Source: Candidatus Woesearchaeota archaeon (lineage in GTDB: Archaea; Nanobdellota; Nanobdellia; Woesearchaeales; WJIZ01). Taken from it: 42,420 nucleotides of DNA. The stretch lies in the NCBI GenBank assembly GCA_018303125.1, contig JAGVYS010000007.1, forward strand, positions 1 through 42,420. The letters are read 5' to 3'. Below the pieces are notes generated by a model. It ran no database searches. It had not been told where the DNA came from and saw only the letters and a list, made by a program, of their open reading frames with translations. Position numbers and translations under genes: made by a program. Positions 22,333-35,946 of this stretch are shown one piece after another; the first letter of the stretch is position 1; each line of letters begins with the position of its first letter.

Positions 22333-24399
22333 ATGTGCGGAATACTTGGCATATTCAATGCAAGCGGAAATGTGAAGGAAGCGCTGCTATCAATGGCAGA
22401 AAGGGGAAGGGATGGTTGCGGAATCTGCGACAGCAGCAACTGTCATTACTCTCCTGACATAGCTGGCTTGCCAGCTATAACTACAAACTGCATGGCACAT
22501 CTCCTGCATTCTGTTGTTGGCTGTGTCAACCAGCCACTGAAGAAAAAAGGGATTTTTATAGCCAATTGCGAGATATACAACTGGAATATCCTTGACAAAA
22601 AGTATTCTTTCAATTCCAGGAATGATGCTGAGCTATTAATGGATTTGCTGGAGAAAAAAGGCATCTCTGAGGAAGTACTTGATGAGCTTGATGGAGTTTA
22701 TGCTGTAGCATATCTTGGTGAAGGAAAAGTGCATATAATGAGGGATATACTGGGAGTTAAGCCATTATGGTATTCCATAGAGGAGGGATTTTGCTTTGCA
22801 TCCGAAAGGAAGGCGCTTGTTAAGCTTGGACTGAAAAAAATAGAGGAGCTTAATCCGAGAATTATCATGTCATATGATACAAAATCAGGAGAAGCAATGC
22901 AGACAAGGAGACAGTTTCTTGCCAGTTCTAACTTAGATAGCAATTATGCTGCTGTCACAGAGAAGCTTCTTCTTGAGGCAGTAAGTAAGCGGATTCCTGA
23001 TGGAAAATTCGGCATACTTTTCTCAGGTGGCATAGACTCAACATTTATAGCTAAGATATGCAAGGATTCAGGAAGGGAATTCGTATGCTATGCAGCAGGA
23101 ATTAAAGGAGAGAGGGAATCTTTTGACATCATTCAGGCAAAGGATGCTGCCTCGAGGCTCGGCTTTAAGCTAAAGACAATTGAGATTTCAAAGGAAGATG
23201 TTGAGCAATATCTGGCAAAGATAGTTCCATTGATAGAGGACAGCAACGTGGTCAAGGTGGGAGTAGGCATTACAATGTTCGCAGCATGCGAGCTCGCAAG
23301 AAAGGACGGCATAAAAGTCATATTCTCTGGATTAGGCTCTGAGGAATTATTTGCAGGATACGAGAGGCATAAGAATGCTCTTGATGTGAATGTAGAATGC
23401 CTCTCCGGGCTGCTGAAAATTTATGAGAGGGACTTGTATAGAGATGATGTGATAACAATGCACAACAATCTTGAGCTCAGGCTTCCTTTCCTTGACAAGG
23501 CTCTTGCAAGGTATGCATTAGGAATACCTGCAGAAATGAAGATATTGACAGAGAGGAACAAGGCCATACTAAGAGATGTGGCAAAGAAAATCGGCATTCC
23601 AGTTGACATAGCTGAAAGGAAGAAAAAGGCAGCGCAGTACGGCTCAGGCTTTGACAGGGCAATAGGGAAACTGGCAAGAAATGAGAAGATGTCCAAATCA
23701 GCTTATCTTGAAAGGTTTTACAGAAAGCCAAATGTTAAGCTTGCTGCCTTATGGAGCACAGGAAAAGACAGCGCATATGCAGCATGGCTGATGAAGAAGC
23801 AAAATTATGAAATATCCTGCTTAATCTGCCTAAAGAGCGCAAACAAGGATTCCTATATGTTCCATACACCCAATGTCGGAATAGCAAATCTGCATGCAGA
23901 GTCAATGAAGGTGCCGCTGATAATGAAGGAGACAGCAGGCACAAAAGAAGAAGAGCTCGATGACTTAAGAGATGCCCTTGCCGAGGCAAAGGAAAGATAC
24001 GGCATACAGGGAGTTGTAAGCGGGGCAATATTCTCTAATTACCAAAGAGAGAGAATAGAAAGAGTATGTGACAGGCTCAGCTTAAAGATATTCTCTCCTT
24101 TATGGCACAAGGACCAGGAAGCTGTTCTGGGTGAAATTTCAAGCAATGGCTTTGAAGCAATAATAGTGTCAATTGCTGCTGAAGGCTTAACTAAAGAATG
24201 GCTGGGAAAGAGAATTGATTTTGATTTGATACGCAAGTTGAAATCACTCAAAGGAATAAACATAAGCGGCGAAGGCGGAGAGTATGATTCTTTAGTTATA
24301 AATTGCCCACTTTTCACAAAGCCGCTTAAGGTTCTTGGCTCAAAAATAGAAGAGGACACAAAAAATTCAGCAAGGCTGCATGTGGAATGCTTGCTATAG
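22333..24399 (+). CDS. asparagine synthetase (class II GATase + AsnB-type synthetase) fused to Dph6-like diphthine-ammonia ligase
   Basis: MCGILGIF GATase nucleophile Cys2; FSGGIDSTF PP-loop and SGLGSEELFAGYERH; second PP-loop ALWSTGKDSAYAAWLM plus YMFHTPN, GVVSGAIFSNYQRERIERVC, GEGGEYDSLV. Confidence 0.9.
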   Translation: MCGILGIFNASGNVKEALLSMAERGRDGCGICDSSNCHYSPDIAGLPAITTNCMAHLLHSVVGCVNQPLKKKGIFIANCEIYNWNILDKKYSFNSRNDAELLMDLLEKKGISEEVLDELDGVYAVAYLGEGKVHIMRDILGVKPLWYSIEEGFCFASERKALVKLGLKKIEELNPRIIMSYDTKSGEAMQTRRQFLASSNLDSNYAAVTEKLLLEAVSKRIPDGKFGILFSGGIDSTFIAKICKDSGREFVCYAAGIKGERESFDIIQAKDAASRLGFKLKTIEISKEDVEQYLAKIVPLIEDSNVVKVGVGITMFAACELARKDGIKVIFSGLGSEELFAGYERHKNALDVNVECLSGLLKIYERDLYRDDVITMHNNLELRLPFLDKALARYALGIPAEMKILTERNKAILRDVAKKIGIPVDIAERKKKAAQYGSGFDRAIGKLARNEKMSKSAYLERFYRKPNVKLAALWSTGKDSAYAAWLMKKQNYEISCLICLKSANKDSYMFHTPNVGIANLHAESMKVPLIMKETAGTKEEELDDLRDALAEAKERYGIQGVVSGAIFSNYQRERIERVCDRLSLKIFSPLWHKDQEAVLGEISSNGFEAIIVSIAAEGLTKEWLGKRIDFDLIRKLKSLKGINISGEGGEYDSLVINCPLFTKPLKVLGSKIEEDTKNSARLHVECLL

Positions 24400-27418: not shown

Positions 27419-29359
27419 ATGAAAATATTTTTCGCAAGCCAGTCATTTTACCCACATATAGGGGGAGTATCAACATACCTTCTCAATCTAGCCATAGGGC
27501 TGAGCCAGGGAGGCAATGAAATAGTTGAAGTCCACCTGAGGATTCCAAATGAACGGACAGAAGACACTGTAAAAGGCATCAAGGTTTATCGCATACCTCG
27601 GACACCCATTAGGGAAGGATTGCTTAAGGGATACAGCAATTTTAAGGAAAGAATCTATAAGGAGTGTCATGGTGAAGGGGATTTCTTCAAGAAAGAGCCT
27701 CTTGTGACCTATGGTTACGATGAATATCTCCAGATAAACTCATTACTCGGCAAACAGATAGAAGACCTTCTGGAAAAAAACCCAACCGAGATAGTACACA
27801 TACACGATTTTCAGCTCCTCATGGTTTACAAGAATGTGCCAAGGGGGGTGCCAGTTATACTGACATGGCACATACCTTTCATGGATTCAATTTCAAACCA
27901 CTTGAAGCGATTCCTGATTAGGCACATGAAAGGATTTGACAAGGTGATTTTTTCATGTGATGAATACGCGAAATCGGCAGTCAAATGCGGATTACCTCCC
28001 AACAGGGTGGAAGTGATACATCCCATCGCAAACACCACCATGTTTAGGCCAAAGAAACACGATAATGAGCTGAAACGCCTGTGCAATATCCCTAACGACT
28101 GCAAGACTATATTGTGCGTACAGCGCATCGACGCAAAGAGCGGTCATGTCCAGTTAATTAAATCCATGCAAAGCGTACTTGCCGGGTTTCCAAAGGCAAG
28201 GTTGGTATTTATAGGCGGAAAATCCATGACAAGCAAGATATCAAAGGAGAGGGAAAACATCGAGAAGGAGGTCCATGCCCTTGTAAAATCCCTCGGCCTG
28301 CAGAACAGTGTATTTTTTGCAGGGAGCATTGAATACGAAAAGCTTCCCGCATATTACAATTCTGCGGACATTGTTGCCCTTACATCGAAGAATGAAGGTT
28401 TCGGCCTCGCTGTCACAGAAGGGATGGCCTGCGGAAAGCCGATAGTAGCCACAAATGTTCCAGGCATAGTTTTGCAGGTGCAGGATGCCGTAAATGGATT
28501 TATCGTAGAGCCGGGAGATTATGAAAAAACGGCTGAAAAGATACTGGAGCTTCTGAAAAATGATAAACTCAGAGAGGCAATGGGAAAAGAAAGCCTATGC
28601 ATAGCCAAATCAAGGTTTTCAATGTCAAAAGGCATAGATATGCATCAAAGGCTCTACAGAAAACTGATTAAGTCAAAAACTGACTGGTGCCTTAAGACTG
28701 TAAAATTGGAGCATGTTTCTGCCATTATCACTGACTTCGACAGGACTATTACTGACAGACCGGGTGTCATAAATAAAACTGTCTTGGATGGGCTCGATTC
28801 TCTGAATAAGCCATTAATCTTGGTTACCGGAAGGGTGATGGATTATGCAAAAGAGCTTTTAAGGAAATATCCTGTATGGGACTGCATAATTGCAGAGAAT
28901 GGTAGCTATGCATATTTTCCAGGCAAGGACCTTTGCTGGAGCTTTACTTCCGGGCCGTTCGAGGAAGCAAAAATGATTCTCAGGAGAGAGAATTTTCCAG
29001 CAGATTTCGGAAATGGTGTAATCAGCATTTCCAAGTCGATTGAAGCTAAAGCAAAAGAGGTTTTAGGCAGCGTGGCAAGGCATATAGGATTCATAACCAA
29101 CGCGGATGAAGTGATGCTGCTCCCGGAAGGAATAAATAAAGGCATTAGCGTCAAGCTTGCTTTGGATTACATGGGAATAGACCTAAAGAACACAGTAATA
29201 ATTGCTGATGGGGAGAATGACATAAGCCTCTTTGCAAATCCTGGATTTAAAGTAGCAGTGGCAAACGCAGACGAGAAGCTCAGGCTTCTGGCAGATGAGG
29301 TCACAGACAAACCCTCTACAGAGGGTGTGCTTGAGGTAATAGAAAAATTAAGAATGTAA
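27419..29359 (+). CDS. bifunctional GT4 glycosyltransferase - HAD (Cof/SPP-like) phosphatase
   Basis: GGVSTYLLNLA, EGFGLAVTEGMACGKPIVATNVPGI (GT4 donor motif); C-terminal ITDFDRTITD, VTGR, INKGISVKLAL, IADGENDISLF (HAD motifs). Confidence 0.88.
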   Translation: MKIFFASQSFYPHIGGVSTYLLNLAIGLSQGGNEIVEVHLRIPNERTEDTVKGIKVYRIPRTPIREGLLKGYSNFKERIYKECHGEGDFFKKEPLVTYGYDEYLQINSLLGKQIEDLLEKNPTEIVHIHDFQLLMVYKNVPRGVPVILTWHIPFMDSISNHLKRFLIRHMKGFDKVIFSCDEYAKSAVKCGLPPNRVEVIHPIANTTMFRPKKHDNELKRLCNIPNDCKTILCVQRIDAKSGHVQLIKSMQSVLAGFPKARLVFIGGKSMTSKISKERENIEKEVHALVKSLGLQNSVFFAGSIEYEKLPAYYNSADIVALTSKNEGFGLAVTEGMACGKPIVATNVPGIVLQVQDAVNGFIVEPGDYEKTAEKILELLKNDKLREAMGKESLCIAKSRFSMSKGIDMHQRLYRKLIKSKTDWCLKTVKLEHVSAIITDFDRTITDRPGVINKTVLDGLDSLNKPLILVTGRVMDYAKELLRKYPVWDCIIAENGSYAYFPGKDLCWSFTSGPFEEAKMILRRENFPADFGNGVISISKSIEAKAKEVLGSVARHIGFITNADEVMLLPEGINKGISVKLALDYMGIDLKNTVIIADGENDISLFANPGFKVAVANADEKLRLLADEVTDKPSTEGVLEVIEKLRM

Positions 29360-30508: not shown

Positions 30509-30629
30509 GGCGGTGTAGCTCAGCCTGGTTAGAGCGCTAGACTCATAAGCGTATGAGTTATGAGACATTATGTCGATGATGCTAAGCAGGGTTATCTAGA
30601 GGTCGTGGGTTCAAATCTCGCCACCGCCA
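30509..30629 (+). tRNA. tRNA-Met(CAT) with 46-nt intron at canonical position 37/38 (30548-30593)
   Basis: GGCGGTG/CACCGCC acceptor, CTAGA-CTCATA...A-TCTAG anticodon arm, GTGGG-TTCAAAT-CTCGC T arm; no encoded CCA. Confidence 0.9.
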
Positions 30630-34518: not shown

Positions 34519-35740
34519 TTATTCGGTTAACTTTTTCTGCCCGCGCTCGTGCCACCTTGAGTTATGGAATAGGTTGAGTCCTGGGTCCAGGATTACATCT
34601 CCTCTCATTTTCGGGGGGTGTTTGGCTATGAACTCCAAATCAAGCTCCACGCCCCAACCAGGCTTATTCGGCACAGTGAATTCTCCGTCAGTAACTTCTG
34701 TATACCAGTCTGCTGCCTTTTTTACATGTGCATCTGCATAATCATTGAAGTGCTCCAGAACCTTTGCGGGCCTGATAGCTGCCATTAAATGTATGCCTGC
34801 CAGAGTTGAAATTACTCCCCCTACATTATGCGGAGCAACCATGATTGAATGAGTTTCAGCAGCCTGAACGAGCTTCATTGCCTGCAATACTCCAAAATTG
34901 GTAGGGTCTACTTGGATTATGTCAGCACCTCCTAACTCAAATAGCCTATGGAAATCTGAAGGAGGGTATAGCCTCTCCCCAGTTGCCACCGGAATCTTTG
35001 ACTTTGACCTTACATATGCATGCCCCTTTAAATCAGTTGGCCTGCACGGTTCCTCTATCCATCCCGGCCTTATGCCTGCATCATATATAGCATCTGCAAT
35101 CTCAAGCGCTTGATGGGGAGAAAATCTTCCATGCATCTCAACGAATATCTGCATATATTCTGGTACTGCCTCATTAACTGCCTTAATAAGGTCAATTGAC
35201 CTCCTGAATTCTTTCCTGCTCAGCTCATGATTTCCGCTCCCGAACGGGTCAAATTTCAGTCCCTTATAGCCCTTTCCTACAACTGCTAATGCCGCACTCT
35301 GGAATTGCTTTGGCTCTCGCTCAACAGTGTACCACCCATTCGCATAGGCAGGTACCTTATCACGCATTTTGCCGCCGAGAAGCTGGTAAACCGGAACGTT
35401 CATGGACTTTGCTTTAGCATCCAGGCAAGCCATTTCAAGTATGGAATAAGCTGTAATCGTCCGCTTCCCGGGACATTGAAATCATCTAAGGTAAATCTCT
35501 GGTACAATGTCTCTATGTCATGTGCGCTGTGACCTATGAAATGGTGCTCAGTGTCCCTAAGAAGCTGAACAACTGAATGAGTCCGCCCGACAACTCTTGA
35601 TTCCCCATAGCCTTTGATGCCTTCTTCAGTTGTAAGAACAACATAAGTAAGGTTTCGCCATGGTGTGCCTAAGACATGCACATCATACTTTGCTATTTTA
35701 AGTTCCTGAATATCAATCTCCCCCTAATACTGTGAGAATG
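34519..35740 (-). pseudogene. mandelate racemase/muconate lactonizing enzyme (enolase superfamily), frameshifted
   Basis: N-part (35400-35681 ORF) DVHVLGTPWRNLTYVVLTTEEG..LDDFNVPG and C-part (34519-35433 ORF) ITAYSILEMACLDAKAKSMNVPVYQLLGGK.. lie in different frames; no ATG before the N-terminal homology. Confidence 0.75.
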
Positions 35741-35803: not shown

Positions 35804-35891
35804 TAGCCCCGCTCGGATTCGAACCGAGGTCCCCGCCTCCAGAGGGCGAGATGATTGGTCCCCCGAGGATTGACCGCTACACTACGGGGCT
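35804..35891 (-). tRNA. tRNA-Gln(CTG) with 15-nt BHB-type insertion in the D-loop (35855-35869)
   Basis: AGCCCCG/CGGGGCT acceptor, TCGCC-CTCTGGA-GGCGG anticodon arm, CTCGG-TTCGAAT-CCGAG T arm; removal of TCCTCGGGGGACCAA gives a 73-nt cloverleaf. Confidence 0.9.
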
Positions 35892-35946
35892 ATGGCAGTG
35901 CAGGATAACTATCGGCTTTTAAACCTTTTTGGAAAGAACTTATTTT

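Follow-up and report, generated by a model that had tools for sequence, protein, structure and literature searches.

The window (the whole 42,420-nucleotide stretch of DNA analysed here, from a Candidatus Woesearchaeota archaeon) carries on its minus strand a tRNA-Gln(CTG) gene whose D arm is interrupted by a short insert, the parts of which are set out in Table 1. The second intron-bearing tRNA gene of the window, tRNA-Met(CAT), lies at 30509-30629 (+), its anticodon loop being interrupted near 37/38 by an intron of 46-48 nt. Elsewhere, a single ORF at 22333-24399 (+) fuses an asparagine-synthase-like part (GATase and Asn_synthase) to a diphthamide synthase domain (Diphthami_syn_2), and another at 27419-29359 (+) fuses a group 1 glycosyltransferase to a C-terminal HAD-type hydrolase. 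An enolase-superfamily gene of the mandelate racemase type at 34519-35681 (-) occupies two frames, its N-terminal domain being encoded by one ORF and its C-terminal domain by another that overlaps it; the split is due to either a frameshift or an assembly error near 35400-35433.

Anatomy of the tRNA-Gln(CTG) gene and its insert

Read from 35891 to 35804, the minus strand is AGCCCCGTA GTG TAGC GGTC AAT CC TCGG GG GACC AAT CAT CTCGCCCTCTGGAGGCGGGGACCTCGGTTCGAATCCGAGCGGGGCTA, and a check of the letters, the coordinates, the 4-bp GGTC:GACC helix, the AAT/AAT bulges and the CC/GG inner helix found all of them as the preliminary description had given them. The covariance-model scan proposed there does recognize a tRNA, in whose D loop 18 nt are inserted compared with the Infernal model. 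Run without introns, ARAGORN miscalls the unspliced gene as tRNA-Ile(aat), whereas removal of the 15 nt leaves the perfect 73-nt tRNA that had been anticipated, called tRNA-Gln(ctg); likewise, the spliced forms of these genes receive tRNA-Gln calls and the unspliced ones do not.

The central helix joins the 5′ exon to the intron with four of four base pairs and is bordered on opposite strands by two 3-nt bulges, and a cut after the second base of each bulge restores the tRNA, in keeping with the finding that the splicing endonuclease EndA cuts between the second and third bulge residues (PMC4307357). Considered by itself, the CTG gene leaves the position of the cut ambiguous, as AA occurs twice. 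In relatives, some introns have AT, GT, TT or TA as their last dinucleotide where this one has AA, and these require a cut after A21, which places the splice site at 21/22, the border of the D loop and the D stem.

As to the class of the motif, the bulge-helix-bulge (BHB) form originally proposed stands for the central helix, the bulges and the inner helix, but the motif is the relaxed HBh′ and not the strict hBHBh′, for the inner helix has just 2 bp and the outer D stem is not flush, a 4-nt TAGC lying opposite the 3′ bulge ahead of the GTG/CAT D stem. HBh′ is a recognized relaxed form of the BHB motif (PMC6379350). The suggestion that 15 nt is near the lower size limit has to be dropped, given that archaeal tRNA introns range from 11 to 129 nt and their medians lie at 12-25 nt (PMC4090602), and that introns as short as 10-13 nt are predicted at or close to the anticodon loop in several genes of the same genome.

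Folding of the CTG gene alone is no better than that of shuffles (z -0.3), and its minimum-free-energy structure is a different fold, at -35.7 versus -31.0 kcal/mol for the cloverleaf with the BHB motif, which counts against splicing. For the precursor of the TTG paralogue described below, the minimum-free-energy structure is the cloverleaf plus the relaxed motif (z -3.6). Because single-RNA folding was uninformative for the CTG gene, statistical support was taken from the comparison of relatives.

Table 1. Features of the tRNA-Gln(CTG) locus (window positions) and two further tRNA genes of the same genome with noncanonical introns
Feature	Position	Strand	Basis or remark
Pre-tRNA-Gln(CTG) gene, 88 nt (predicted 73 nt spliced)	35804..35891	-	Infernal RF00005, 46.0 bits; ARAGORN on spliced form
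Predicted intron TCCTCGGGGGACCAA, 15 nt, between A21 and U22	35855..35869	-	sequence and relatives
5′ exon GGTC (18-20a), exon strand of 4-bp central helix	35872..35875	-	pairs with 35857-35860
Intron GACC, intron strand of central helix	35857..35860	-	pairing kept in relatives
5′ bulge AAT, predicted cut AA/T	35869..35871	-	EndA bulge rule (PMC4307357)
3′ bulge AAT, predicted cut AA/T	35854..35856	-	EndA bulge rule (PMC4307357)
Inner hairpin CC-TCGG-GG	35861..35868	-	helix compensated in TTG paralogue and SURF_58
D-stem 3′ strand CAT, partner GTG at 35880-35882	35851..35853	-	sequence; same pairing in minimum-free-energy fold of TTG pre-tRNA
TAGC, between GTG/CAT D stem and central helix	35876-35879	-	sequence
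Anticodon CTG	35840..35842	-	ARAGORN, spliced form
TATA-like box TTTAAAAG, 25-32 nt upstream of tRNA 5′ end	35916..35923	-	sequence only
tRNA-Arg(CCT) with 17-nt intron	L027:1501-1592 (G000:C33:8063-8154)		spliced form folds as normal tRNA
tRNA-Thr(CGT) with 17-nt intron	L031:690-779 (G000:C46:5689-5778)	-	unspliced gene miscalled tRNA-Leu(aag)

The insert in the same genome and in relatives

The genome assembly (1.35 Mb in 54 contigs, 94.7% complete, 34 Rfam tRNA matches) holds only two tRNA-Gln genes that we could find, CTG and TTG, which sit on different contigs and both carry the insert. In the TTG gene, on contig 15, the homologous 15-nt insert reads GGTC AAT TC TTAG GA GACC AAT, and its inner hairpin TC-TTAG-GA differs by a compensatory change of the first inner pair from C-G to U-A; a TATA-like box, GTTTAAATAT, recognizable by its letters, lies at about the same upstream distance as in the CTG gene. 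These observations bear directly on two other explanations. The first is that the window gene is a dead or non-functional copy, with an intact tRNA-Gln elsewhere. Since the assembly is 94.7% complete, such a copy could be missing from it; however, a search pattern that also allows D loops of mature length matches just these two genes and no intact tRNA-Gln in the assembly, and both isoacceptors combine the insert with perfect exons and TATA-like boxes. A dead copy is thus extremely unlikely, and the intact second gene that the preliminary description had raised against its own reading did not materialize. The second is that the insert arose as an error of assembly, or else through a short tandem duplication of GACCAATC by chance, a thought encouraged by the CAATC at both ends of the 15-nt period. 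The insert recurs on an independent contig of the genome and in independent genomes from independent projects, with differing introns whose helices are compensated, so that an artefact, also foreseen at the outset as an objection, is ruled out and the chance of this explanation as a whole is virtually nil.

Two further genes of the genome contain noncanonical introns of this kind, both 17 nt long. They were spotted by eye and then checked by splicing, upon which both were correctly recognized: tRNA-Arg(CCT), with an intron at 28/29 (AGCG ACA CTT CCAA AAG CGCT AGA), and tRNA-Thr(CGT), with one at 30/31 (CGGC AGA TTC TAAG GAA GCCG AGC). With Gln(CTG) called Ile and Thr(CGT) called Leu, routine tRNA calling cannot be relied upon in DPANN genomes, and as a result tRNA sets may be understated or isoacceptors may seem to be missing.

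The preliminary description had also proposed looking for the same insertion in the tRNA-Gln of related genomes. In pattern surveys, each covering as many as 371 genomes, an insert at the identical point turned up in no fewer than 31 tRNA-Gln genes; they belong to about 20 families within the window's order and, in addition, to one genome from the same class but not from that order. Among 99 sampled relatives, at least 19 carry such an insert. The inserts of the 31 genes range from 14 to 34 nt, with one further case of 13 nt, while the exons stay mature-like, and this variable length beside constant exons resembles the behaviour of an intron and not of a functional loop. Many relatives have a mature, intron-less D loop, sometimes beside an insert-bearing gene in one genome: in both G081 and G148 the second tRNA-Gln has the intron-less spliced sequence, and the gene of G033, GTGTAGCGGTCAATCATCTCGCCCTCTGGAGGCGGGGAC, is exactly the spliced sequence without the insert. 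A scan of named genomes places the same intron in Woesearchaeota, Nanohaloarchaea (two genes in strain M3_22), an Aenigmatarchaeon (L117) and metagenome-assembled genomes of Thermoplasmata. In three relatives (L040, L045 and L052), the tRNA-Gln gene has, besides the D-arm intron, an apparent second intron adjoining the anticodon. Matches in the bacteria Litoribacter (L041) and Gracilibacillus (L043), as well as those in G018, G032, G058, G067, G001 and G040:C66, proved to be chance matches and not tRNAs.

Across these genes, the central pairing is maintained through changes among G-C, A-U and G-U pairs, and inner hairpins of unrelated sequence begin in register. At least three of the four central pairs together with at least two inner pairs, in a fixed register, are present in 25 of the 31 inserts, versus a mean of 1.8 and a maximum of 8 in 2000 trials with shuffled sequences. 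The 31 inserts came from patterns that do not require central pairing; one of them (G006a) was first met with a pattern requiring NCC only and was later recovered without that requirement, and a first sequence set, drawn partly with a pattern requiring GRCV and hence biased for central pairing, was excluded as a basis for this statistic. The low scores of G091 and G052b arose from the script picking another register, and the two genes of G011 and that of G040 show, by eye, a comparable geometry displaced by a few bases, which in G040 and G011a takes the form of GCG:CGC pairing with bulges GCA/GAA. SURF_58 (L059 = G148), a relative from another family, has exons identical to those of the window gene at 73 of 73 positions: its intron, TTGGACACAGACCAA, has an inner hairpin (TG-GACA-CA) with 0 of 8 positions in common with that of the window, and the helix is kept all the same (TG/CA versus CC/GG). 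The paralogue, the relatives and the covariation thereby give strong support to the preliminary proposal that this DPANN tRNA-Gln has a BHB-type intron of 15 nt in its D arm.

The same comparison speaks to the possibility that no splicing takes place and the mature tRNA retains the insert as a larger D loop containing a hairpin. Across relatives, the length of the insert and the sequence of its hairpin vary freely, whereas the geometry of the splice sites is constrained, and many relatives do without the insert altogether. In a functional tRNA, G18 and G19 are needed for contact with the T loop. The pairing always engages these two residues and, because they are locked in the intron helix, the insert cannot sensibly persist in the mature tRNA.

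EndA, RtcB and the predicted splicing route

A single EndA of 194 aa is encoded in the genome (G000:C4:54097-54678; PF01974, 102 bits), which bears on the earlier call to identify its type. Its catalytic Tyr, His and Lys are conserved in an alignment with EndAs of solved structure, and it is nearest in sequence to NEQ205, the catalytic subunit of Nanoarchaeum equitans (3iey_A, E 4e-36), and also to the Methanocaldococcus jannaschii enzyme. No second EndA or beta subunit was detected in the genome's own 94.7%-complete assembly even at E<=10, with a query sensitive enough to detect the N. equitans beta chain NEQ261 at 2e-12, and nearly all of 50 relatives likewise have a single EndA. The length and one-subunit make-up fit, as far as the gene tells, the alpha4 type of M. 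jannaschii, a homotetramer of ~180-aa units. Alignment with the M. jannaschii, Sulfolobus tokodaii (CSL) and ARMAN-2 (ASL) enzymes shows that the CSL/ASL loop, an insertion with a conserved Lys before the SLxE motif, is absent from the EndAs of the window genome, its Woesearchaeal relatives and the Nanohaloarchaeal and Thermoplasmata carriers; among the aligned carriers, only the Aenigmatarchaeal EndA (L117) resembles ARMAN-2. Broad specificity has been tied to (alpha-beta)2 or epsilon2 enzymes with CSL/ASL loops, the alpha4 and alpha′2 forms being called strict (PMC6379350, PMC12397907, PMC4090602). An EndA without these loops and with no detected second subunit, in a genome with predicted introns of relaxed motif, means that the loop rule does not tell the whole story, unless something in this genome was missed.

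The ligase RtcB was not found in the window genome's assembly. It is present in 55 of 60 relatives, among them the six remaining genomes of the window's family, so that an assembly gap is the likely cause.

Besides the fold of the CTG gene, the points that weigh against splicing are the relaxed motif, an EndA without CSL/ASL and without a detectable beta subunit, and the RtcB missing from the assembly. Retention of the insert draws on the last two, as an EndA of this type is not predicted to cut relaxed motifs; set against the constrained splice-site geometry and the engagement of G18 and G19, it is nevertheless very unlikely. We consider it very probable (about 0.93) that the 15-nt insert is a noncanonical archaeal tRNA intron of BHB type at 21/22, cut by EndA. 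According to this route, once the gene is transcribed, exon residues 18-20a (GGUC) would pair with the GACC near the 3′ end of the intron, and two 3-nt bulges (AAU and AAU) would flank the resulting 4-bp helix. The genome's single EndA would then cut both bulges after the second of their three bases (AA/U), freeing a 15-mer, and the exons would be joined into the 73-nt tRNA-Gln, presumably by RtcB, if the genome has one. Excision would have to come before G18 and G19 can quit the intron helix for their normal contact with the T loop.

Known D-arm introns and a possible origin of the recurrence

Short D-arm introns of BHB type are already known, and their splicing is proven in Crenarchaeota. 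The closest likeness is to the tRNA-Glu genes (UUC and CUC) of S. tokodaii, whose D-arm introns are cut in vitro by that organism's own EndA (PMC4307357): there, too, the intron is short, the motif is BHB-like and cut between the second and third bulge residues, and an AA-rich direct repeat at the borders leaves the junction ambiguous from cDNA alone (PMC4307357). The S. tokodaii case differs in its isotype, Glu, and in its EndA, an (alpha-beta)2 enzyme with a Crenarchaea-specific loop. BHB-type introns away from 37/38, in the D arm among other places, also occur in Thermoproteales, Thaumarchaeota and Caldiarchaeum (PMC8450103, PMC3218864, PMC3293823), which have a two-subunit or loop-bearing EndA, unlike the DPANN genome studied here with its one small loop-less enzyme; moreover, it is one site in one isotype that recurs here in about 20 families. 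The view from which we started, that introns outside the anticodon region are established mainly in Thermoproteales, is accordingly too narrow, given their confirmation in S. tokodaii, the reports from other Crenarchaeota and Caldiarchaeum, and their recurrence in the present order.

Within DPANN, ARMAN-2 (Micrarchaeum) similarly has noncanonical tRNA introns with relaxed motifs (PMC12397907, PMC4033280); its epsilon2 EndA, however, is a three-unit enzyme with the ASL loop, unlike the 194-aa single unit without ASL of the window genome. The likeness to N. equitans lies in the enzyme, the window EndA being closest to NEQ205 of the NEQ205/NEQ261 pair (PMC3655853), and the difference in the separate beta subunit, which N. 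equitans has and the window genome does not detectably encode. In Nst1, as here, the catalytic subunit is present and a beta subunit was not identified (PMC3655853). No D-arm intron in tRNA-Gln is reported for Nanoarchaeum or Nst1 in those portions of the sources that were available. Full-text literature searches, of incomplete coverage and thus compatible with the existence of earlier reports, returned none of D-arm introns in Woesearchaeota. As far as searched, what is new is the combination of a single-unit EndA lacking the loops with an intron that recurs across a DPANN order at a single site in a single isotype.

Noncanonical tRNA introns have so far been explained by co-evolution with features of EndA, namely the beta subunit, the CSL and the ASL, and a DPANN order that combines recurrent D-arm introns with a plain single-unit enzyme offers a clean natural test of this idea. 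Somewhat short of even odds, we tentatively suggest that Woesearchaeota, Nanohaloarchaea and some Thermoplasmata may splice noncanonical introns with relaxed motifs using an EndA without CSL/ASL and, in Woesearchaeota and Nanohaloarchaea, without a beta subunit, and that the tRNA-Gln D loop may be a recurrent site of intron gain. If true, this would contradict the accepted rule by which noncanonical introns depend on such loops or subunits. The repeated gain might be explained by the self-complementarity of GGCC, through which a short GGCCAAT duplication could yield a spliceable BHB motif in one step. An origin by duplication, which the intron may have had, can be set beside the gene of G081, which reads GGCC AAA TCAAGGA GGCC AAT.
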